Shown here: in pieces, positions 1 through 62,900 of the stretch
How positions within the stretch are numbered: position 1 is the stretch's first letter
Layout: each line of letters opens with the position of its first letter
DNA from: Rhododendron vialii
Taxonomy: Eukaryota; Streptophyta; Magnoliopsida; Ericales; Ericaceae
Direction of reading: 5' to 3'
NCBI RefSeq assembly: GCF_030253575.1
Contig: NC_080564.1
Coordinates: 7,298,501-7,362,500, forward strand
DNA length: 64,000 nucleotides
Notes under the pieces: model-generated
Told to the model about the DNA's origin: nothing
The model's database searches: none
The model's input: the letters and a program-made list of their open reading frames with translations, nothing else
Made by a program: the position numbers and the translations under genes

Positions 1-1475
1 TTACCTTGTAGCTTTTAGCCTTGCAAATTTATTGGATTAAGGCCTATCTTTTTTTTCGCTTCTGGGTCTTTACTAGCTTTTAGTTTTGGCTTTTAGATCT
101 GTATTCCACGCCACCCAACCCAATTTATAGTCAGGCATCTCAAATGGTAATTGAACAATTGAGGGCAGTTGATGCATTTCAGAAGAGGAGACTGGTGGTA
201 CTTGGTATGTCCTCGTACACAAACAGATAAGAGGACATTTGAATGGGCATGAACTTTGGCTAAATGTACAGCAACCGAGCAGTTACTTAGTATAAGTTAC
301 CAATAAAGCTCATACTAATCAAAATACTTCCTACTTCTCAAAAATCCTCTCATTATGTTCTAGCAGTAGGCCAAGATCCCAATACACTAGAACAATACTT
401 CCCAGATAAAATCTTAAATCTTATGTGCAACCGCTATGCTGGTTATGAAAATTTTAATTTACTTATGAAGGGTAGCTTCTTCTTCTTTTTTTTTATAGGC
501 AATGAAGGGTAGCTTTTTAGTAGGAGGATACTGATGAAAATTAGGTTTTAGCTTATCTGACAATTTTTTTGTTGTTGTAGTTGTAGTTGCATAAACAATT
601 GGATTTTCTTTGGAAGCAATTTGGATCAGAGTAAGATGAAAGTTTTCCATAATTTATGTGTAGGTCTGAAAGCTAGTGTTCAAGTTTGTATGCATTCTTT
701 TGTTATATTGAGTTTACCATACTTTCCTATAAAAGGGTGTTGCATGCTTGTGATCAGTGCTTTCTGACTTTTTTTTTATTTGATGTAACTGCTTTTCCTA
801 TTTATTTCCTTTTCCCATTGCTAATTCTAGTTGTCCTGTTTTCCTCTGGCATTGCTATTAAGCACATAGCAGGATCTACTGTCACGAATCTACATAGGAT
901 CATTTCCATAATGTTCTTTATTTCCTGAGCAAACTCGCTGATCGATATAGATTTGTTTGATCTATTGTTTAGACTTTAGAGTTTGAACTATTTGTCTTAC
1001 AGATTAGAAAAGAATCCCCTTGTTAAGGTTTGTGTTGCGTCTTGATGAATCTAGGATTGATCGTAATGAGTCCACCATTATTTTTCTTGTGTTGCAATAG
1101 AATATCACTTTGGGAATATCTTGTTTCCCGGAGTACTAAATTTGCCTGTAGTGCAAGTAGGCAAGCGGAGAGTGTTGTTACTGATACTGAGTTTGTTTTT
1201 TCAAGTGATGTTTAGGCTGCACTGTGCTTTTGTCAATGTCATGCATGAAGATTAAAATGCATCGATTCAACGTCTTAGATTGATGGTGAATGTTTTCATC
1301 CTTTATATTGAAATTCCAACTGAAAAAATCAATTTGTGCCTCCAGTATTTTGGAAAAATGGGATTGATGGAGCTCATTTGTTTGCTAGATGTCTCTCTAT
1401 GGTCCTTGATTTAACTCGAAGAAATGTCGGCACTTTTGTTCATCTGGTATTTCTAACTAGTTATCTCTTTGACAG
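1..1475 (+). other. Intron upstream of the first visible methylesterase exon
   Basis: This stretch ends in a pyrimidine-rich acceptor (ctctttgacag) directly before the exon at 1476. The family has an N-terminal region before that point, encoded by an exon that I do not see here, so the first exon should lie left of the window. The stretch is AT-rich. I see no convincing coding exon or recognisable repeat in it; short open frames such as 686-928 and 1030-1215 show no family resemblance. Confidence 0.6.
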
Positions 1476-2554
1476 GATGTGAAGCTTGAGGATCTAGAGA
1501 CCAGCCATTTTGTCCTTGTCCATGGAGGTGGTTTTGGTGCCTGGTGTTGGTATAAAACAATAGCACTTTTAGAAGAAGGGGGATACAAAGTAACTGCGAT
1601 AGATCTAACTGGCTCTGGGGTTCATTCATTTGATACGAACAGCATCACAAGTCTTCCACAATACGTGAAGCCCCTTACAAATTTTCTTGAAGGACTTGGT
1701 GACGGGGAGAAGGTACTTGTTTATTTCTTTCAGTTTTTTTTTTTTTTTGGATTCTGCTATCCATTTGGTACAGCTGTCTGCATAACAAGTTTTTTGCAAC
1801 ATGTGAAACCATTCACGGTTTCTTGGAAAACTTGCCAGCAGGGAATAGGTTTTTATCTGCATCATTGGGTTTTTTTTTCCTGTGTTGTCATTTATGTTAC
1901 CATGATCTTTTAGGTAAGGTTTGTTGTTGGCATGTTGCAGGTCATGTCAATTTATTGAATTCAGTGCCAATCAATTTTTTTTTATTGAATTCAGATGTAT
2001 AACTGAATCACAAAAATCTTTTCTTTGTTACACATGTAGGTGCTTGTATGGTCCTTGCACTTTCTAATTCTTTAGTTTGAGGGTCCTTAAGGTTATCCTC
2101 CAGAGTTCTATTATACCCGCAACCTTCATTTCTTCTTTGGCTAAAGGCTTGATCCAAGTTGTTTACATCAGTGGAGAGACCTGAATAAACTTAGTTCCAT
2201 TACCTCTTGTCTTCTGGATCAAAGAGTAATTTGGGGTACGGGTATTTGTTTGAGAGAAGTGCAAATGTAGGGAATTATTTGGACAAAATTGCTGCTCTAT
2301 TAGTCAAATCTGCATTCTAACCGATGGCAGCCTTAAGTCTTTGTTCTTGACTAAGGGAACCTGTTGTTTCTTTTTGGGGAAATTATACCGAGAGTGTTTT
2401 TTTTTCTTATAAAAATGACAAGGGGTATCCCCTCCAGGTTACAAGCTACAGGGAATTTGGGGTTAAGGATGTTCAGATATATTGTCAAGGATAAGTCACC
2501 TTTTACACTAAAAAGACAGATGTAGAGAGGGGGGTTTGATGCATCTAAATTTGG

Positions 2555-25295: not shown

Positions 25296-28200
25296 TTATA
25301 CTTCCACTTTGGGTCCTTGCAATTGCCTCCGTACCAGCGCTGTGTAAATACCATCCATTGCGAGAAGCTCGTCGTGGGTGCCGCTTTCTGCAATCTGACC
25401 ATCGGATACAACGGCAACCATGTCTGCAGTTTGGACTGTTGAAAGCCTGTGAGCTATAACAAGAACAGTCCTTCCCCTCATCAGAGACTCCATAGCATCC
25501 TAATACAGCACAGGCGAAAATCGGTCAGCTAATCATGCTATTGTGGATATTCCTACGAATTCCTTTCTACCAAAACCAAAAGAGAGAGGCTAACTAAACC
25601 AGAAATTACAGTTCAAAACTAAAGACAGCTTACGCCAAGAAGTATCGTGCAGGAAAACAATACCATCAGATATTATGGATAAGTTTTTACGTAACCAAAA
25701 GAGGAATGTGCTTTCTCCGAAAAATACAGTCGATGTTGAATATCACAAGTTTCAGTTGCGTGGATATAAGTGTTTTTTTTGTAACTTAGGTGTTCGGGTC
25801 AGCTTACGTGCACCTCAACTAATCTTGGGGGCCCAATCCCACCGCCCATTTGCAAGGAGCTCAATTAAAGCCGGAGCAATTACTCTGTATGGACTGCCCC
25901 AAACAAGTTGATAGCACTTGAGACCTTAGGAGAGAGCAAAACCCTAAGGCCCAAGCCTTGACCATCAGGCACATCCCCTTGTGCAAATATAAGTGTTGAT
26001 GCCCAAGGACATAGAGATCAAGTTAATAGATCTTCTTAAGTACTTTTTTTCCCACCATTTATCTGAGGTCCAATGACATTTGCAAACTAACATGGAGCTT
26101 CCTATGTGCAAAGATAGATTGTTTTAGCCGATCAAAAAAAAAAAGATAGATTGTTTTTTGCATAATTCGGTGGTAACTCTTCTAGGTCCATGAATTATTT
26201 GGAACCAGTCAAATCTCACCTGGACCAGGTATTCGCTCTCAGCATCTAGGGCGCTTGTGGCTTCATCCAGCAGCAGAACTTTTGGGTTCATCAAGAGTGC
26301 TCTGGCAATTGCTATTCTTTGTTTCTGGCCTCCAGAGAGCCTCAACCCACGTTCTCCAACAACAGTTTGATACTTTTCAGGAAATGCTGATATGAAATCA
26401 TGGGCATTTGCCATTTTCTGCAATATAACAATCCAGCAACAAGAACTAGTTAATCTCCCAAATTGTAGGGCTAACTTGCTTTTGGGAGAAAAATGAAAAT
26501 AATGAAAGAAAAGAGAAGGATAAATGACCCCGAAAACTTACGGCTGCATTTTCTATCTCTGCAGTGGTGGCTTTTCCATCAGATCCATAGGCTATGTTCT
26601 CCTCTATAGAGCAATTGAAAAGAGTAGGCTCCTGGCTCACTATGCTGATCTACAGTTTTCAAAAGCATGGAAGACTAACGTATTTAAAATTTCTAGACAT
26701 GGAAATTAATCCATGATTATAAGGACAGATCAACAGTTTGAATGCAATGAAGAACATACCAGCCAACCCTCGTCTATTAGGCTAAAAAAGGAACTAGCAA
26801 CACACTCGAGGCAACTCATTTAAGTTGGACTCTGATGAAACGAAAACACATCAAAATGGGTGGATAAGATATACTCCAGGCCTCGTAATACACATGTTCT
26901 CCCACGTCTTATGAGTCTGGAGATATGGTAAGTGTTGGATTTGTGAAGCTTGATTCGGCTTTGGATTGCTAATTCGCTGACTATACAGCGAGTATTACAG
27001 CAAGTGTTTGGTAATGTAAGCCGTAGGATATAAATATTATGTTATACGCAACCGGTGTAATTTGTACACTCTCTCTTCAATTGATAAAGAGGGCAAATTG
27101 GTGTGAGCCGTGGATCTATCCAATTACACAGCTGGGGAACCGAGTAAATATCTTTGCGTCTTTCCCGTTTGCGTACTTGACTGTTCCTCGCGCAATGTGT
27201 GTGCTGTGGTTTGGCCGATTTCTCAACAGTAAGCACCACAAAATGCTGTGTTTTTTTCTTCCTTCAAAGGAAAATGCTAACCACAGCTCATTAGGCGAGC
27301 ACAGTTAGGTCTAGAAAGTGTGTGAAAAGAGTGTTGGATATGCAAGTGTGTTGGCTTGGCTGTAGTGGCATGTGAAAGTGTACAGAGATCATAATATTTT
27401 GTTGCATTATTTGTCCCTTAACATTTAACACCTCCTAGTAGGCCTTTGTTGGCAACCAGTAGTTTGAGTGAAGACAGTAAACTAGGTCTGTAAAGAACCC
27501 AAATGTAACCTACAACAGCATATTATGAAAATTGAATATGCATGTAAACGAAGATCCAGGCATTAGATTACCTTTTTGTGCAAATATTGGTGGGATATTT
27601 CCACAAGGGGAACCCCGTTTAGCAAAACTTTTCCTTTGATTGGGTCATAAAATCTCTCAATCAAGTTCGCTATAGTAGTCTGCAACAAATGTGTAAATGA
27701 ATTTACAATGGTAAAGATTCCTGATAATTTAAATGCCGCCAAGAAAAGAGCTTCAGATTTCTGTGAAGGAAAAAAAACACAATTAAAATGGTAACTAAAA
27801 TACCTTTCCACCACCGCTTGGACCAACGAGGGCAACTTTGGACCCGGGTCTCAGTTTTAAAGTTATTCCCTGCAATTGAAAAAATTACTGTTAGATGGAT
27901 CCAAAATAGTCTGAAATCGTGCATTGTGATTGTGGTGATATTCACATATTAGGAGAATTCTAAAAGATACACATAGTAAGCTTGAGTTCATCTAGAAATT
28001 TGAGAAAGATTAATACTCAAGTCAGTTTGCAGGGGAAAATGGGATGAAGAGAAAGGAAGATTTCTAGAGAAGAACACAAATGGCATGCTAAACTCCTTAG
28101 AAGTCCACAATTCTAAATTCCACTAGTTTTTGAAGAATCTTTACTAAACCAAATAAAAGAAACCAGAACTTAAAAATAGTACGTAACTCATGTAAACCCT

Positions 28201-28400
28201 AGTCTGATACCAAGAAAGGTTTGCTTTGTACATCTATATTTGATACCTTGAGTATCATATGACTTGGGCGAGAAGGATAAGCAAACCAAACATCTTCCAA
28301 TTCCACATCTCCATCTGGATTGCTGCATTAAATGCCGCATCATGAATGAAAGAAACTAAGATTATGTAACAGTTGGGTGCATTTAGAAACACATATATTA

Positions 28401-28479
<79 letters not shown>

Positions 28480-31400
28480 TAACCCAACAGGGCATTTATC
28501 TCCTGATTCTGGCATGACTGACTGGCGATCAAGAAGCTGAAAAACTCTCCTACTTGCTCCTGCAGCTTTCATTGCTGTTGTATATAATCCTGAGAGTGAC
28601 GATACAGAAGACCCAACTGCAGGTGGAAAATTTAGCACATTGAAGATCAAAGCTCCCATATTACTGCCAAATTTAGAACCAATTAACTATTTTGGATTTT
28701 AACCATTGACTTTAAATATGCACGGTCAGGAAACTCTAATTAAGAGGAAGAAATGGATCACGAGAAATTTGATTCGACTTCTCAAATGAAGCCCGCTTAA
28801 CTGGATAAATACTTTTACTTCATTCAGTTCTATTTAAGACTCTCCGACAAGTAGGTTACCATGTGTTTCCCCACTCCTTGCAATCACAACTCTTACCTTT
28901 TGTACTTTATGTAACGCTGTGACCTCACCTACAACATGAACTGATTCAGCCATATCACAGAATCTTGACTCACCACACTTGACCAAACTTGCATAGATAC
29001 CAGATTCCGTATGTCATCAGCAACCTCTAACATTACATTTACCATGCCTAAATTTCATATAGTTTTTGTTCAATGCTTTAAAGAGAAAATGGCCTCTTGC
29101 AGAGGTTCTATATTTCATGATTTTTTTTTCTTCTTTTAATGTTCGCTTTCAGATGGCCAAGGTTGACGAAACAAAATTTTAAATATGTTCTTTGATTTGA
29201 GTTACAACTAACCCATTTCAAAAACCATTGCAGATTTTACAGGCGTGAACACTAAAGGAGGTACCTGTGAGGCTATAAAGAATGAAGGATGTCAGAGATC
29301 CTGCAGTCAGGGCGCCCATTATAGTCAAATAAGCTCCATAGATAACCACTATGATAACTGATAAAGTAGAAGCTGCATTTAGCCCTCCAAAGAACAAACC
29401 AACTACTTTCTGCAGTCAAGAACAGTGAAAACTCATTACTTACAAAACATCTCAGTGGAAAGACAGAAGAATTAAGACTGTTTGGATCACAGATACATGG
29501 GAGGTTTATTGAGGGACGGAAAAGGTGAAGGAAAACACAAGTAGACAAGGAACTGAAGGAAGTAAGAACAAAATTATTTTATTGGTTTGCCGAACATTTG
29601 TTTGCCCTTGGTAAGTCCCTGAACAAATCCATGACCGAAACACAGCGTAAAGAAAAGGAGGGGGATTATGAATGGCATCAAGGAACTCACAGCTTGCTGA
29701 ATCCCAAGTTTCAGGGTCTCATCAACTTTCTCTGAATAGCATGAAATTGCATAGGCTTCTCTGGCAAAAGATCTCACAGTTCGAATGGCCCCAAAAGATT
29801 CCTATAAAACGAATTTTTGGGCAGCAGAACGTCACCAAATGAATTCAATAGTTTAGAAGCAAATCTTCACAATATCAAATCACCAGGATGTCAAGCAACC
29901 AATAATGCTTGGATAATATATGTACCTATATACATAAACCACTGTTATCCAAAAGGAAAAAGGATGCTAAGAATCTGTGCAGAACAGTTTGTTTGAATGG
30001 TATTGATTTGATTTAGAGAAAACCGAATCAATTGGTTGGTAGGCGCTGCCTACTCACTCGGACAATGCTCTGAACACGAAGTTCGGCCCAAGTTACTTTT
30101 TCATTTGCGACGTAACACATCAATCGGACTGTAAATTGGATATTTTAAGAGATTCTAAATCCCATTGCAGAAATGGCTTCGTTACAAATGCAGTTCTCAT
30201 ACTAATTCAGTCTACTACAATGCAAAAAGGAACAAAAATCTGTATTAACATAAACTTAGGAGCCTACAAGCAAAAATTTGGGACCAGTTATCCTTACCAT
30301 TTGCTTATCTAATAGTACTTTCTACAAGAACAAAAAATAAGGCATAAGCAAAAGAAACAAAAGAAAAAGGTAAATGCAAACCTCGGCTATTGAGGAGGAT
30401 ACTGCAGCTGCAGCTTGAGTTTTGTGAGAAAGTTCCCGAAGATAGCGCCCAAATTTGCGCACAGCAACTGAAATGACCGGTACAATAACCAAGGCCAACA
30501 CTAAGAAGGAATGAAGAAACAATAATTAGTGTCCCCTGGATTGATATGAACATAGACCCAAAACTCTTCAATTCCAAAGCACTCACTCACATGTTAACTT
30601 CCATGACGACGAAAACATGAAGGCAACACCAATGATTGCGGTAGTTACATTTCTGAGTGCCTCAGAAAGGTTGGTCGTTGCAGCGTTTTTAATTATTTGG
30701 GTATCTTCAGAGAGCCTGCTAAGTAGCTCTCCTGTCCGAGTAACATCAAAGAAGGCTATTTCCTGTTGAACCATATTAGCAACAATTATCAACCAATCTT
30801 TCAAACATGAATCCAGACATAGGAACCAATGGAAGTACATTTCTCAAATTATGACCATGGTCTCCAACAGCTGCTGTTCCAAGTGCATCAATAATACTCT
30901 CTCCATCACATTTTGTTAGTCCATTTTCTGCGATTGTGCCTTTTTAATCGGATCAACGACATCATGCATTTTTGTGACTTTTTTCCAAAATCCCCCAAAT
31001 AAATCTCATTTCGTTCTTGTAGACAAAATTTTCGAAATCATCCAAAAAAGAATAGAACATAAAACAAAGACAATATCTATCTATATCAGGAACAGTGAAA
31101 ATGGACAAACAAATGGGACGGAGGAAATAGCATATCCTTGGTATCAAAATTAGAGCAGTTTACTTCGTGTTGGAGCATGTAATATCAGAAATGGCTGCAA
31201 CGAATTATAAATAAGAAGGCATTTAAGACCCTCACTTGCTGGATAAGATGACTAAACAAGTCCTTCCTCACTCGAGCAACAACCCTTTCACTTGCATAAG
31301 AAAACAACCATGCCCGAATCGCTGTGCAGATAGAACTGAAAAAAAAGAATGATAAAAAAGAGAGGAAAGAAACTAAGGTTATTTGGTGCACTTGAAAGTA

Positions 31401-40538: not shown

Positions 40539-43500
40539 ATGTATCTCATAGCACATGTCTTCCTCTTCCTCTTCCTTCATCATCTCATTCCCTCTACTGC
40601 TGGTAATAGCTTACCCCATTCTGACCACCCCATTGACGATATTACAGTCAATTGTGGCTCCTTTGGCAACTCAATTGCATTGGATGGCCGCGAGTGGGTT
40701 GGAGATATCGGCTCACAAAATACTTTCAAGCGACACCCAAATGGCAAATTGATGAAGTCACTAGAAGTTCCTCAATTCCTTTCTGCTGATCCTGTCCCCT
40801 ACATGTCCGCTCAAGTCTCGCGCTCTCAATTTTCCTATACGTTCCGAATCAGTCCAGGACAAAAGTTCATCCGGCTACACTTCTATCCGGCTTCATACCC
40901 AGGTTTTGAAAGGTCCAATGCCTTTTTTACTGTAAAAGCCGGAGTTTACACCCTTCTCAGAAACTTCAGTGCTTCCCTTACTGCTGATTCTCTAGGAGTG
41001 AAATATTTCTCTAAAGAATTTTGTGTCCATGTTGAAGAAAATCAACCACTTAGCATCACGTTCTCTCCATCGCCAACTACCACTTTAGATAGCGTATATG
41101 CTTTTGTCAACGGGATAGAGATCATCTCTATGCCAACTTCTCTTTACTACACCGGTGATGGTGATCTAGGTGCTCATGTTGTTGGCCACAAACACGGGTT
41201 CCACATTGATACAGGCACTGCATTTGAATTGGTTCACCGCTTAAACATTGGAGGGAACTCTATTTTATCAGTAGACGATTGGGGCATGTTCCGACGGTGG
41301 TCTGGGGACTCCAAATACTTGTTAGAATCTGGTGTTTTACCAGTTTCTACATCCATTCCAATCAAATACACAAACATCCCGGCATATGCAGCGCCACAGA
41401 AAGTTTACCAAACAGCTTGGTCAATGGATCCAAACAAGAAAATGAATAGGATGTGCAACCTTACGTGGAAATTACCATTGGATTTGGGATTCAGGTACCT
41501 GGTTAGGCTCCATTTCTGTGAGATTGATTACGAGATAAAAGAAATTGGCCAAAGAGAGTTTAGTATCTTCATGGATGGTAAGATCGCCGAGGCTTCTGCA
41601 GACCTTATCAAATGGAGTGGTGGAAATGGGGTTGCAGTGTATAAGGACTACATGGTGATTATTGATGGAGATAAAATGGAAGGAAAGCGTGACCTACTCA
41701 TAGCTGTGCAACCTCTTTCCTATGAGTCAAGGACTGAACACCATACTGGTGCTGTCCTAAGTGGGTTAGAGGTGTTCAAGTTGAGCAATCCTGACAATAG
41801 TCTTGCTAGTCAGAATCCTAAGCCTGTTTCTCATGCTCCTACATCTACTACCGTGAAGCCTCTTAAATTACTGCTGGTATTTGGCAATGGAAATGCAATT
41901 GTAAGTTGTCTGATAATTTTCATAGTTTCACTGAATATTGTTGTTTACAAATTACGTGATTGGGGGGACGTCATCCAGAAAGACATATCGGCACCATCCA
42001 AGTCAGAGGAATTGTGCCGCCGTTTTTCGCTTTCTGAGATACAATTGGCGACCAACAATTTTGATGATATGTTGGAGATTGGTGATGGTGGATTTGGTAA
42101 AGTGTATAAAGGACTCATTGACAAAGGGGCCAGCACTGTTGCCGTGAAACGCTTGAAGTTGACGTCCAAGCAAGGAGCTGAGGAGTTTTGGACGGAGATC
42201 AAGATGCTTTCCAATCTCCGGCACACTCATCTTGTTACACTAATCGGATATTGTGACGAGAGTCCGGAAATGATCCTTGTCTATGAGTATATGGTTCATG
42301 GGACCCTAGCCGATCATCTCCACAAAATTACTAGAAATAGCAATGGTGGCGTTTCTCCTTTAAATTGGGAGCAGCGACTCAACATTTGCATTGGAGCCGC
42401 ACGTGGGTTGGAATACCTTCATACTGGTGTCCAGCACAGAGTCATACACCGTGATGTGAAGACTTCTAACATTTTGTTGGACGAGAATTGGGTAGCCAAA
42501 ATTTCAGATTTTGGGTTGTCCAAGATGGGTGGCAAATCAACAAGTCAGGCAAGCACCTACATTATCACAGACATTAAAGGTACGTTTGGGTATCTGGATG
42601 TGGAGTATTTCTTGACCCATAGACTTACCAGGAAGTCGGATGTGTATGCCTTTGGTGTGGTATTGTTCGAAGCACTATGTGGGAGGCCGGCGGTGGATAA
42701 AAGATTTGAGGGAGAGGAGCGGAGTCTAGCGCTTTGGGCCCAACAATGCATCAAAGAGGGAACATTTCCTCAAATGATTGACCCTAGTATAAAGGGACAA
42801 ATTTCTCCACATTGTCTGAAGGTCTACGTAGAAGTTGCTAACAAATGCTTACATAAACGTCCAAACGAACGACCTAGAATGTCAGATATTGTGCAAAGGC
42901 TTGAATTTGCATTATCATCGCAAGATCAGAGTGCATATTCCTCTACAGATACAGAAGGGGAGCAGGAGGAGGAGGTTCAGGAGTCTAGTGCGGTTGACAA
43001 CATGCCAATTGAAAAGGTTACAGAGGGGGAGGAGGAGGAACAAGAAGAAGAGGTTTTTTCTGTTAGTGGTGAAGACAAGAAGCAAATAGGTGAGATTGTC
43101 ACTGTTCAGCAGCCTATAGAATATACCGTATCCATTCTTAGGACACCTTTATCCATGCCTAACAGTACAGCTGTATCCATGCCTGACAGTACCCCTAGTA
43201 CGGCCAAAGAAAGAGCCAACAAGAAGTCTATATCCAAGGCAGTTCATGGTCTTGCTAAAGTAATGGATTTTCGGAGGAGAAAGATGAAAGCTAACGATTC
43301 TAGCAGTGGATCATCGTGGTGGTGGAATAGATCCAAGTCACCAACTAAGGGCTCATCCCCTCCAGAACCTCCACCAGAACTACCAGTGGTTCCCTGTCGT
43401 CATTTCTCAATCACTGAGATAAAAGAAGCAACAAACAACTTTCATCGCACCATGATAATCAGGTATGGCGGTCCAGGTGGCGAGATGTACAGAGGCTATA

Positions 43501-44372
43501 TTGACAATGGAAAACTTCCGGTTGCCATCGAAAGGTGTACGAAAGATTCTGAGGACAATTTTCAGGAAGAGGTTGAGTTGCGCTCGAGGCTCCAACACCC
43601 CCATGTGGTTTCCTTCATCGGATACTGTAAGGAGTATGGTGAGACAATCTTTGTTTTTGAGTACATTGAGAAGGGGAACCTAAGTAATCACCTCCATGGA
43701 AGAGGAAAAGAACCTCTTCCGTGGAAAAAGCGTCTTGAGATCTGTATCGGTGCTGCACAAGGACTAAATTACCTTCATACTGGTTCCCAGAAGCCAATCA
43801 CCCATGGTGACCTAAGATCAAGTAGCATTTTGTTAGATGAGAAATGGTTTGCTAAAGTTTCAGGTTTGACAGTGTCCAATATTTTGGACCCGGACGACAT
43901 GACACGAACTGTTGGCACCACTATTGTGAGGAAGACCATGGGATATAGGGACCCTGAGTATCTACTAAGGGGAAACCTAACCACCAAATCTGATGTCTAT
44001 TCTTTTGGCGTAGTGTTGTTGGAAGTACTTTGTGCTAAGGAACCGTTTTATTCAGGTGCACCCAAGGGTGAAGAGATTCTAGCACACTGGTTTAGGACTT
44101 GCATTCGAAGTAAAACTATGCAATTGATCGTTGATCCGTATCTGATAGGGAAAATGGCACCTAAGAGTTTCGGTAAATTTGTCATGATTGCTGAGAGGTG
44201 CTTGCTATTCAGAGGAGTTGAGAGGCCAGCTATGCAGGATGTGGTGAAGAACCTGGAGCTTGCATTGCAGCTGCAAGAGACAGCTGGGGACCATATTAAG
44301 TTTGGCAAGCCTGGTGATCCTCCAGAGGCGATCCACAAAGCTGCTGTTCGTGCTTACAATCAGGTTTTGTAA
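40539..44372 (+). CDS. CrRLK1L malectin-like receptor with tandem kinase and pseudokinase domains
   Basis: One intronless frame of 1277 residues, against roughly 800-900 in ordinary CrRLK1L proteins, which are also usually intronless. Order: signal peptide 1-22, malectin-like ectodomain about 34-415, membrane span about 447-470, kinase 1 about 508-792, acidic Glu-rich linker 793-950 with a basic patch RRRK at 912-915, kinase 2 about 967-1245. Kinase 1 keeps GDGGFG (516-521), Lys537, HRD 637-639, Asn644 and DFG 657-659, so it should be active; its APE region reads DVEY instead of DPEY. Kinase 2 has Glu998 for the catalytic Lys, HGD (1089-1091) for HRD, Ser1096 for Asn and G-L-T for DFG, so it is a predicted pseudokinase. 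FERONIA-type relatives sense wall or RALF signals at the plasma membrane. The ligand and role of this protein are unknown. Confidence 0.95.
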   Translation: MYLIAHVFLFLFLHHLIPSTAGNSLPHSDHPIDDITVNCGSFGNSIALDGREWVGDIGSQNTFKRHPNGKLMKSLEVPQFLSADPVPYMSAQVSRSQFSYTFRISPGQKFIRLHFYPASYPGFERSNAFFTVKAGVYTLLRNFSASLTADSLGVKYFSKEFCVHVEENQPLSITFSPSPTTTLDSVYAFVNGIEIISMPTSLYYTGDGDLGAHVVGHKHGFHIDTGTAFELVHRLNIGGNSILSVDDWGMFRRWSGDSKYLLESGVLPVSTSIPIKYTNIPAYAAPQKVYQTAWSMDPNKKMNRMCNLTWKLPLDLGFRYLVRLHFCEIDYEIKEIGQREFSIFMDGKIAEASADLIKWSGGNGVAVYKDYMVIIDGDKMEGKRDLLIAVQPLSYESRTEHHTGAVLSGLEVFKLSNPDNSLASQNPKPVSHAPTSTTVKPLKLLLVFGNGNAIVSCLIIFIVSLNIVVYKLRDWGDVIQKDISAPSKSEELCRRFSLSEIQLATNNFDDMLEIGDGGFGKVYKGLIDKGASTVAVKRLKLTSKQGAEEFWTEIKMLSNLRHTHLVTLIGYCDESPEMILVYEYMVHGTLADHLHKITRNSNGGVSPLNWEQRLNICIGAARGLEYLHTGVQHRVIHRDVKTSNILLDENWVAKISDFGLSKMGGKSTSQASTYIITDIKGTFGYLDVEYFLTHRLTRKSDVYAFGVVLFEALCGRPAVDKRFEGEERSLALWAQQCIKEGTFPQMIDPSIKGQISPHCLKVYVEVANKCLHKRPNERPRMSDIVQRLEFALSSQDQSAYSSTDTEGEQEEEVQESSAVDNMPIEKVTEGEEEEQEEEVFSVSGEDKKQIGEIVTVQQPIEYTVSILRTPLSMPNSTAVSMPDSTPSTAKERANKKSISKAVHGLAKVMDFRRRKMKANDSSSGSSWWWNRSKSPTKGSSPPEPPPELPVVPCRHFSITEIKEATNNFHRTMIIRYGGPGGEMYRGYIDNGKLPVAIERCTKDSEDNFQEEVELRSRLQHPHVVSFIGYCKEYGETIFVFEYIEKGNLSNHLHGRGKEPLPWKKRLEICIGAAQGLNYLHTGSQKPITHGDLRSSSILLDEKWFAKVSGLTVSNILDPDDMTRTVGTTIVRKTMGYRDPEYLLRGNLTTKSDVYSFGVVLLEVLCAKEPFYSGAPKGEEILAHWFRTCIRSKTMQLIVDPYLIGKMAPKSFGKFVMIAERCLLFRGVERPAMQDVVKNLELALQLQETAGDHIKFGKPGDPPEAIHKAAVRAYNQVL

Positions 44373-53202: not shown

Positions 53203-53591
53203 TGAGCGAGGGTGTAAAATATTGCTATAGCCAAGAGAGCTCCACTTTTGCTAAATGGATCTCCTGCAAACAAAGCCTTCATAGACACATCGCTGGGATA
53301 CGTATGTTGTTGCGCTTTGTTTTCATGCTTTGTATTGAAAATAGATTCTTTTGTCCTTTTATCCTAAGTTTGAGAATGAAAGATATACTTACTCAAAATT
53401 ATCAGATCATGTTCTTAGCTTTGCTACAACCTTGGCCAGTCTACTGAATGATTATTTTCTGCACTATTAGCATCCGGCTCCGACAAACAGTTGGGGCAGG
53501 TTCACAATGGATCTCATTTTTTATTACACAAAATCAAGTTGATCTAAAACCAAATTTGTGCTGAAAGAATTTATCGTCAGAGTAGATTTCG
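53203..53591 (+). other. 3' flank of the DUF2039 gene
   Basis: Probable 3' UTR followed by a short unassigned stretch before the retroelement fossil. No other gene is seen. Confidence 0.4.
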
Positions 53592-54129
53592 ATGGGGGAC
53601 ATTCCCAAGGAAATCCGTGCCCTCATCGAAAGGGAAGATGAAAGGCATGCTCAGTTGTTAAAAGAAGAAATAGTCTTAATAAACTTGAAAGATGAGAATG
53701 ATCCCCGAATGGTTCAGGTGGGCTCCACTTTATCTCCAGAGAAACATCATGATTTCAAAGAACTGCTCTCAGAGTTCAGTGACATTTTTGCGTGGTCCCA
53801 TCAGGACATGCCTAGCATTGACCCAGAGATAGTGGAGCATCGAATTCCCTTGCTACCGAATGCCAAACCCGTAAAGCAGAAATTAAGGTGAATAAGGCCG
53901 GATTGGGTACAGAAGATTAAGGAAGAGGTCACTAAGCAGATCGACGCCAGTTTCCTTATGGTTTCTCAATACCCCACTTGGGTTGCCAACATTGTCCCGG
54001 TTCCTAAAAAGAATGGACAAATTCGAGTGTGTGTTGATTTCAGAGACTTGAACAAGGTAAGCCCCAAGGACGATTTTTCCCTGCCGCATATTGATGTATT
54101 GGTCGACAATACAGCGGGCCATGCCATGC
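53592..54129 (+). mobile_element. Fossil fragment of a Ty3/gypsy retrotransposon polyprotein
   Basis: The translated sequence has the linker ahead of reverse transcriptase (…SDIFAWSHQDMP…DPEIVEHRIP) and the RT N-terminal block with PVPKKNGQIRVCVDFRDLN, characteristic of Ty3/gypsy Pol. Only this piece of about 540 bases is recognisable. Protease, most of RT, RNase H, integrase and both LTRs are absent nearby. It is an old, broken relic and not a host gene. Confidence 0.85.
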
Positions 54130-54592
54130 CCTCGTTTAGTTACATTCTTCCAATGTCAAAAATAAACGTCAAAATACGGTTACAGAGCCATCTACCCAAT
54201 TTCCAAAAGACTATAAGTGTAGATGTAAGCTCACAAAAGATGCTTTTTCTTTGCAGGCATACACTCCTCCTCCCGAATCCTTATCCAACACCCTTAAAAC
54301 AGGCCATCACTTTGGAGCAATCCTGTGAACACTAACCCACTTTCAAGGCGACTCCCTTCCTTCTGACAACCCTCAAACGAAGCCTAGGCGAACTTTTCTC
54401 TTTCTGCCGGCTACCTCTGAGTCTCCGACCACTATATCTTGGCTTGAAAACAAGTTTTGGAACATGCGTGCATCAAACATGTTCTATGCTTTTGATGTTT
54501 AGAAAAATATTAGAGTAAAAAACTGAACAAACCAGAAAGTTGCTTAGTATGAACAGATAACGGAAACCTATTAATTGGGGCACTTAGCCAGA
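54130..54592. other. Unassigned sequence between the gypsy relic and the MULE-like element
   Basis: No recognised gene or element ends. The plus-strand frame continuing from the relic has no family resemblance beyond about 54130. Confidence 0.35.
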
Positions 54593-59900: not shown

Positions 59901-62900
59901 TCTTGTTCCACATCGGAAGAAAATGTTTAATAGGCAAGCATTCCACTGCTACTTGATGGTACCAACTCCTGGAGCACTTACACTGCCCAGCACGCCTAGT
60001 GCCAACACATGGCAATATATTTATACGAAATATAAATTTATGTATACATGTGTATATATTATCGCGCAAGGTCATTTGAGCCGAGCATCTGATAGCTTGG
60101 GCTCGGCTCATTTATTAAAAGAGTTGAAAATTCTGGCTCGAGCTCGTTCAATTGCTTAGCGAACCGAGTTCGAACAAGCTCATATCGAGCCGAGTCTTGA
60201 TCACCTCGGCTCATTTGCAACTGGCAACCCTACCGATGACTAGCCCTCAAGGAAGAATTTGATATAAACAAATAAAAAGACACACCCATAGGAGGTCCTC
60301 CCTCCCCGCAGAAAATTTTGGGTTAAAGCTATTTCAAACTGATCCGCAACTTAAGGTGAAATTGAGCAAATATGGAGGTTTGCTTTCATATTAGGCATAA
60401 AAACCTGTCAGTCTTTTCACTAGACAGCAAACAAATTCCCAAAATGAAAGCACTGCTAACCTACCACATCAACTGGAACAAACACAGCTTGAGAACAAAG
60501 TGACGCTGCCATGCCGGCAATTCCATTAGCTAGAGCTGCCTGTGTAGGTTCTGATAATTTGAATGGTTCAACCAACCTAAAAGCAGCTACTTTTGTTGTC
60601 TCTAAAGCAGTAAGAAATATAATCCTGGCAGGAATTGCACCAGTAATAACTGTGCCAAAACCTCTGTATAACCCAGTAATACCATCAGTCCGCAATATGC
60701 CTCTTATCAAGGAAAATGCATTCCTTTCAACAGCATCCTTTGAGGCAACCTGCAGCCTGGTCTTCACAAGAGAAACAGGGTATAGAGCTACTGTAACCCC
60801 AGTAAATATTCCAGCTCCTACGACATAAAACTTAGTTTTATCAAGCCTGCAGAATAGGTTTTGAGTCATGAATAAACTTAGATAAATCAAAATGACTCTT
60901 ACAAGTTAATAATACAAAAGAAATGCTTTTTGTAATGAAAAGCAAATTAGAGTTACATACACCATGACCAAAAGTGAGAATAAAAAACAAATGCGACACA
61001 GTCCAGGGAGGGAGTAATTAGAATCCCTATCTTGCATCTCAATGACAGGTTTCTTGTTAACTGCTCAAATTCCTCTGGGAACGACTTGATCAAGCTTCTG
61101 AGTCTTAAACTTTCCGGTGGTTATAAATCAAAAACTTAAAGAGTACTAATGGTTCTTTAAACCAACTTCCCTAAATAAGCAATTAACATTGTGCTACGTA
61201 CTTAAATTGAGGAATTCACTTCTCTTGCAACATTTGGCACAGTGGTCTTGGAGGCACCAGAAGAGTGATTCTGAGTATTACTGGAGCACTAAAGCAGAAC
61301 CATAGGGTGTCCATCAGTTGCAGGGCATAGATGGCATAACAGGGCCAACGTTTCAGGTTCCATTTCAAATAATCAGAAACTCGTCTGCTATGAAGCAAAT
61401 GGGTTTTGAGATTTCCACATGAGCTAAAAAGCTACAACAAGCAACTTTGTGAGAAATTATGATGTAAGATATGATCATGTATCCAATCTATCTATGTAGC
61501 CTTCATCTTCACAGTAATGGGACTCTTACATCTCTACCAAGGAGTACCAACTAATGAACAGTATAAAACAATTGATGAGAGGAATCAACATCATTTCATG
61601 GCATTGAAAGTTCATGTAGAATAAGGAGTAATTTTGCAAGTATGTTATCTAGTCGGGATTCTAGAGGAGGCAATCATACTCTAGAGTCTAGATCAACACT
61701 TTTTTCCAGGTCAACAATTCTTTCTCTTCTTCTATTGTTCCGGGGGATGCTTACTTCTTCCCTGCATGCATCTGACTTCTGTCTTTCTTCCCTATATGCG
61801 TACCAATGAAGGAATATGCATCTTTGCTTTCCCCATCTCAAGCTTCATTTCCATTAGTGGGAAAGATGCCTAACATTGATAGTGCTTTGGTGATCAAACG
61901 TCGAGATACTTCGGCTAACCAATTAATGTGACTTGTGTGGTACAACAATTTGTAGGAAACAATCGACTTAGAGTTGTAGCTACGAGTGCTATAGATGGCC
62001 TAACGAAAGGAATGAAAATGATTGACACAGGAGCTCCTCTAAGTGTTCTTTTTTATACTTGTCGGGGTATATAGGGGCCAATCCATAGGGCCATTTTGCA
62101 TCGGAATAAACCCACCATCCACTAGCAAGGCCCACTTGAAGCTGGATCAAATGCTATGTATGCTTACTGGCTCATTCATCAGTATACTAAAATAGTAAAA
62201 TGCTACATGACATCAGATTTTTTTTCCCCCACAGTTCGATATCACCCTATATTTTCCCTATCCGCCAAAAAAAAAAAAAAAAAACAAGGATGCAACAATA
62301 AATAAACAATCATTCTACAGCCACAAACCCACTTACATCCACATTGGGGCCCTCAACACTACACCTCCAATATGTGTGGGACCCACCAAAAGATGTGAGT
62401 GTGTGTAAAGTGTTTGTATGAGCGTTTGTGGTTATATAAGTAATTGATAAATAAAACTTTGATTCGTGTTTGGTCATGTAAGCATTGAAATTAAACCCCG
62501 TGATGATAAGCATCGAAAGTAGCCCTACCTAGTTCTATAACAAGAAAGCGAAACGAAGCCAATTCATAATGGAAAAATGAAAGACCGCAAGAAAATAACC
62601 AACAACCTGTGTGTTAACATAATATTAGGAAATATTATGTTGCCATATTTTCTAAACTTTATTATTCTGTTTCTAGTTTAGGCAGATTATTATTTATGTT
62701 TCCTAGTCAGTCTAGGTTTCCTAATTATGCGTGTTTCCTTGTTATGTGTCTTGTAGCCTATATAAAGGCGTGCTAGGTTATAGTTTGAAGACAAACAATA
62801 ATACATCATTTCTCTTTTCTTCACACTGTGATTGAAATGAAGCGAATTCCTTCAAACATAGGACAGACTACAGGCAAATTGCCTCATAAAGAACAAAGAA

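Follow-up and report, generated by a model that had tools for sequence, protein, structure and literature searches.

A 64,000-nucleotide stretch of the Rhododendron vialii genome (NC_080564.1, positions 7,298,501 to 7,362,500; hereafter the window, with coordinates counted from its first letter) encodes a receptor of the CrRLK1L family that has a second kinase domain placed behind its own kinase in the same open reading frame. This second kinase is not a one-off; most of the related genes that we found share such a layout. The second kinases of these genes, some of which are of immune-signalling types, suggest an exchangeable sensor or signalling module. By analogy with known immune proteins, we tentatively read the window gene as a receptor-type CrRLK1L tandem kinase in which the second kinase would be a tethered, non-catalytic binding module, most likely an effector bait that alters signalling by the first kinase – a reading to which we give somewhat less than an even chance.

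The window gene comprises the following parts, with K1 and K2 designating its first and second kinase:

40539..44372, forward strand: whole gene body, a single open frame of 1277 codons plus stop
40539..40604, forward strand: presumed signal peptide, about residues 1-22, from a hydrophobic stretch at about 3-21
40821..41780, forward strand: malectin-like ectodomain core, Pfam residues 95-414, with the FERONIA ectodomain match spanning about 30-433
41898..41954, forward strand: membrane span, residues 454-472, the highest hydropathy window
42015..42902, forward strand: K1, CrRLK1L type, catalytic residues intact (K537, HRD 637, DFG 657)
42927..43394, forward strand: linker, changing from acidic to basic about halfway, weakly related to some paralogue linkers
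43395..44288, forward strand: K2, predicted CrRLK1L-type pseudokinase (E998, HGD 1089-1091, S1096, GLT 1109-1111)
44289..44369, forward strand: C-terminal tail behind K2, by eye resembling a portion of the L009 and L010 tails (loci introduced below)

The frame has no internal stop, and the chance of 1277 stop-free codons at its base composition is about 10^-33.6. Pfam placed Malectin_like (PF12819) at residues 95-414 (92.4 bits) together with two kinase stretches, and also recovered the kinase domain when the K1 and K2 pieces were taken singly. Among the solved structures of the PDB, the FERONIA kinase was the best match for both K1 (382 bits) and K2 (297 bits), and the ectodomain matched the FERONIA ectodomain structure with 312 bits. 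A preliminary description of this DNA had proposed a single 1277-codon frame running from a signal peptide through a malectin-like domain, membrane span, K1 and linker to K2, and the open frame, Pfam and hydropathy agree on this architecture. Its ‘150-residue acidic linker’ requires amendment: residues 797-876 are indeed acidic (21 D/E, 4 K/R), but the 83 residues that follow are basic (6 D/E, 15 K/R) and the length is 156. NCBIfam returned generic kinase models alone, all far under their cut-offs, and a plasmid DNA search gave no match, as expected of a plant.

The window gene resembles the CrRLK1L receptors FERONIA, ANXUR, THESEUS1 and HERKULES in its malectin-like ectodomain, its signal peptide and single membrane span (both from hydropathy only) and its uninterrupted-frame body. 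Its K1 also groups with the family, being nearest to the FERONIA kinase among solved structures and falling accordingly in a tree with five loci taken as canonical. Because it has two kinase stretches rather than one, we regard it as a CrRLK1L variant and not a canonical member. With two kinases in one open frame, one of them a predicted pseudokinase, it also resembles tandem kinase proteins – though PMC6170490 describes these as free of receptor and membrane parts, and the window gene has both an ectodomain and a membrane span.

We compared kinase motifs across 26 K1, 13 CrRLK1L-type K2, 5 canonical, 2 SOBIR1-type and 3 RLCK-VII domains from the same genome; neither this comparison nor the trees include the disrupted loci L018, L029, L031, L032 and L033. 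All 26 K1 domains retain the VAIK Lys, the HRD Asp and the catalytic-loop Asn, and 25 retain DFG (L027 has DYG); the K1 of L039 has QRD. Among the 13 CrRLK1L-type K2 domains, DFG is present in none, and the VAIK Lys and the HRD Asp in five each. The K2 of the window gene lacks the VAIK Lys, the HRD Arg, the catalytic-loop Asn and DFG, and retains the HRD Asp as HGD. All residues named in the preliminary description proved exact (Lys537 in VAVK, HRD 637 and DFG 657 in K1; Glu998, Gly1090, Ser1096 and GLT 1109-1111 in K2), and by these motifs K2 is a predicted pseudokinase.

We searched the host genome (G000, 532.6 Mb, 13 contigs, with the window on contig 8) with the whole protein and, among the best candidates scored, obtained at least 67 matches at at least 36 places. 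The resulting loci are L001, which is the window gene, and L008-L042. Five of these (L034-L038, less similar to the window gene, at 32-43% in the ectodomain and 54-59% in the kinase) were treated as canonical CrRLK1L; each has one kinase and no second kinase within the stretches examined, whereas the clade of the window gene adds a second. The remaining 31 loci were taken as the window gene's group, and 22 of them lie at C10:5.64-6.03 Mb. In 19 of the 31, K1 and a second kinase share one open frame: the second kinase is whole in the window gene, L009, L010, L012, L013-L017 and L019-L022, and only its first exon is in frame in the other six (L023, L024, L025, L026, L030 and L042). Ten further loci (L008, L011, L018, L027, L028, L031, L033, L039, L040 and L041) have second-kinase sequence downstream in a different frame or exon; in L008, L027, L028, L040 and L041 this is a short piece (37-61 residues; at most 116 in the tblastn matches), beyond which the stretch ends or no further match occurs. 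No second kinase was seen within the stretch examined at L029 and L032. As a separate observation, the tandem-kinase receptor L010 (C10 near 6.02 Mb) has an in-frame TAG inside its ectodomain.

These second kinases are of three kinds. The first, a CrRLK1L-type pseudokinase, occurs at 14 loci (the window gene and 13 others). Twelve of these read through from K1 to K2 in one open frame; in L018 and L039 that frame is broken or discontinuous. It stands behind an ectodomain in the window gene, L009 and L010, and in another frame in L039; no ectodomain match was found in about 1.6-2.4 kb upstream of L013-L018 (C10; L018 disrupted) and L019-L022 (C2).

The second kind is an RLCK-VII (BIK1/PBL-like) kinase with introns. 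Complete splice models with intact catalytic residues were obtained for L023, L024 and L030 (C10 near 5.77-5.86 Mb), which are malectin-like CrRLK1L receptors with the RLCK-VII kinase behind the linker and four introns in the modelled K2. The K2 of L023 scored 367 bits with BIK1, 365 with PBL2 and 222 with FERONIA, and its first exon alone had PBL2 as top match. Defects occur in L025 (YKD for HRD), L028 (AVQK for AVKK) and L031 and L033 (degenerate and frame-shifted).

The third kind is SOBIR1-type. L012 (1418-4954; C12 near 29.73 Mb) is a malectin-like receptor in one 1179-codon frame whose K2, with intact catalytic residues, matched SOBIR1 (7ctv) at 519 bits and its best non-SOBIR1 structure, BRI1, at 200. 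Its twin, L011, carries the SOBIR1-type kinase in a separate frame, there with both the HRD Asp and the catalytic-loop Asn lost.

In a tree of 49 kinase domains, the 26 K1 formed one clade (support 100/97), the 13 CrRLK1L-type K2 another (98/98) and the five canonical kinases a third (100/97), with long branches among the K2s, that of the window gene included. Removing the K2 of L009, L019 and L039 and the SOBIR1 rows left K2 at 97/96 and K1 at 96/98. An origin of K2 by private duplication of K1 is rejected by the tree and by the approximately unbiased (AU) test, in which a sister placement of the two in the window gene gave p-AU 1.4e-7 – though this test is exposed to the same model pull between long branches as the tree. 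The earlier suggestion of domain duplication or fusion with a neighbouring paralogue thus did not hold: K1 and K2 fall into distinct, well-supported clades, each of which also includes domains from other loci.

The pair has been inherited as a unit: K1 and K2 identities correlated across the 13 tandem genes (r 0.90; none of 9999 permutations as high), with K1 identity exceeding K2 identity in 77 of 78 gene pairs and K2 averaging 48%. Because the single clade of 13 pseudokinases branches in parallel with the K1 tree, and because K1/K2 sisterhood was rejected, the tandem is old and inherited. The 13 K1 of RLCK-VII and SOBIR1 receptors also formed one clade (100/99). Since the SOBIR1 pair sits within its eight-row part, an RLCK-VII kinase was probably replaced by one of SOBIR1 type. 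Grouping all 13 pseudokinase-bearing K1s gave p-AU 0.22, which is compatible with RLCK-VII replacing the pseudokinase or with separate gains, and constraining the K1s of the window gene, L009, L010 and L039 to a clade gave p-AU 0.32; neither grouping was rejected.

We computed the ratio of nonsynonymous to synonymous substitution rates (dN/dS) for 12 gene pairs of our choosing. The K2 value was below 1 in every pair and exceeded the K1 value in 11, and the SOBIR1-type kinases of L011/L012 gave 0.60 (0.42-0.94). The K2 domains of the relatives are under purifying selection, yet freer than K1.

Tandem kinase proteins are already known, as are ectodomain-less CrRLK1L kinase-pseudokinase proteins in sunflower and lettuce. 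A tandem kinase atlas (Reveguk 2025) reportedly contains many members with membrane spans. In the literature searched, available in part, we found neither tandem kinases nor a fused RLCK-VII or SOBIR1 kinase described for a malectin-like receptor; the atlas lay outside this search and may contain such proteins. The dual-kinase CrRLK1L-1 proteins of sunflower and lettuce (OrDeb2 interval; PMC8866362) resemble the window gene in their CrRLK1L-type kinase, in a second kinase half without the active-site and ATP-site signatures and in their clustered genes. Only one of their two kinases has active-site signatures, which in sunflower is the left one (PMC8866362; follow-up PMC10884359). Two of the sunflower proteins, of 662 amino acids, are without ectodomain or membrane span (PMC8866362), whereas the window gene has both; the ectodomain-less pairs L013-L022 are the ones that resemble the sunflower genes. 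Strong expansion of the CrRLK1L family has been reported in sunflower (PMC11646777).

Tandem kinase proteins, a kind surveyed in PMC6170490 and exemplified by RPG1, WTK1/Yr15 and WTK7-TM/Pm36, likewise have two kinases per polypeptide, often a kinase and a pseudokinase. Unlike the window gene, WTK1 is described without receptor and membrane parts (PMC6170490) and WTK7-TM has a Kin I-Kin II-TM layout with its membrane span at the C-terminus (PMC11006675). Some tandem kinase proteins require a helper nucleotide-binding leucine-rich repeat receptor (NLR; PMC12830362), and a wheat receptor-like kinase has been mentioned that combines two kinases with a pair of membrane spans and a pair of possible ligand domains (PMC11968617).

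We propose that the ectodomain of the window gene would sense a wall- or RALF-type signal and K1 would signal, with K2 acting as a non-catalytic protein-binding module that is tethered to the receptor and binds partners or effectors. Most likely K2 would be a bait resembling a kinase that pathogen effectors target, so that its binding or modification would change K1 signalling and trigger defence. Where relatives have an intact second kinase, this tethered module may instead be a built-in downstream partner. RIPK is an RLCK-VII kinase. Because FERONIA partners with this cytoplasmic kinase in Arabidopsis (PMC12786044), the RLCK form links types of protein already known to work together and could be read as a fused pathway. 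The pseudokinase form reads more easily as a bait or in-cis regulator, and we rank the bait above the regulator; the preliminary description had suggested roles of these two sorts, and both are plausible.

Bait roles have been proposed for the pseudokinases of tandem kinase proteins (PMC6170490) and for the integrated domains of NLRs (PMC12835825), and the latter resemble the window gene's group in having varied added domains at one place on a chassis (PMC12835825). The group differs in that its members are not NLRs but membrane receptors to which kinases have been added, and binding of effectors is here only proposed. It is conceivable, if rather doubtful, that this FERONIA-like clade is a cell-surface counterpart of integrated-domain NLRs – a chassis with exchangeable C-terminal kinases, on which immune kinases of effector-targeted kinds would serve as baits or partners, and of which the window gene would be the pseudokinase form. 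What a fused kinase does for its receptor is an open question in tandem kinase immunity. Should the second kinases prove to be baits or partners, the series of dead CrRLK1L, RLCK-VII and SOBIR1-type kinases on one chassis would let that role be tested directly, and wall-integrity receptors and intracellular immune kinases would be joined in one molecule.

Several points weigh against the bait proposal. The bait role itself stands on analogy, and the faster change of K2 is also compatible with relaxed constraint. Upper confidence limits of K2 dN/dS exceeded 1 in two of the 12 pairs (L014/L017, 1.09; L020/L021, 1.03), and selection on the window gene's own K2 is poorly measured because the synonymous divergence (dS) in its pairs is high (1.0-3.2). 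Met codons at 873, 881, 909 and 916 of the linker leave room for a separate K2 product, and in the set of 26 linkers those of the ectodomain-less copies showed no detectable relation to that of the window gene (E no better than 0.06). The K1 and K2 structure models, made from a two-row alignment, reached a mean predicted local distance difference test (pLDDT) score of 46 and 45, too poor for use.

The best surviving alternative, which we consider unlikely but worth serious attention, is that K2 is a pathogen-independent, in-cis allosteric regulator of K1, just as the JAK pseudokinase domain regulates its kinase in cis. Such a role would fit the co-divergence of K1 and K2 over the 13 genes and the fact that the two stay together also in ectodomain-less frames; the activity of wheat WTK7-TM required both kinase domains as well (PMC11006675). 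However, relatives have RLCK-VII or SOBIR1-type kinases at that place, which is more in keeping with a module for binding or partnership than with a fitted allosteric surface, and no K1-K2 interface could be obtained by modelling.

It is distinctly less probable that K2 is a functionless, decaying leftover of an old duplication. The higher dN/dS of K2 in 11 of 12 pairs, its lower likeness in 77 of 78, the variation of lost residues among copies and the broken or discontinuous frames of L018 and L039 all point that way, but at 12 of the 14 loci K2 remains in one open frame with its K1 despite a mean K2 identity of 48%, and its dN/dS lies below 1 in every pair.

That receptor and pseudokinase are separate products, through two transcripts or an assembly join, we regard as very improbable. 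The Met codons in the linker would permit the former. The window is without N, and the frame of K1, linker and pseudokinase recurs at 11 further loci, on C10 and C2, which disfavours a join. The window gene's linker is moreover detectably, if weakly, related to others in the set of 26 (L023, E 1.1e-5; L010, 1.7e-5; L024, 7.6e-5; L030, 0.005; L012, 0.006) and hardly to that of L009 (0.016), although acidic composition may have strengthened these matches. An assembly join between two genes was on these grounds judged unlikely.

Some degenerate kinases bind nucleotide or show unusual catalysis. Such residual activity is scarcely to be expected of K2, in which the HRD Asp persists as HGD but the VAIK Lys is replaced by Glu, DFG by GLT and the catalytic Asn by Ser in combination.

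The window also contains the following features apart from the receptor gene:

1473-1913, forward strand: alpha/beta hydrolase exon (PF12697)
26124-26537, reverse strand: ABC transporter exon (PF00005)
28255-28686, reverse strand: open frame without a Pfam match, by eye perhaps part of the same gene as the ABC transporter exon
53586-54335, forward strand: by eye a broken fragment of a Ty3-type retroelement polymerase, without a Pfam match
60456-60905, reverse strand: mitochondrial carrier exon (PF00153)

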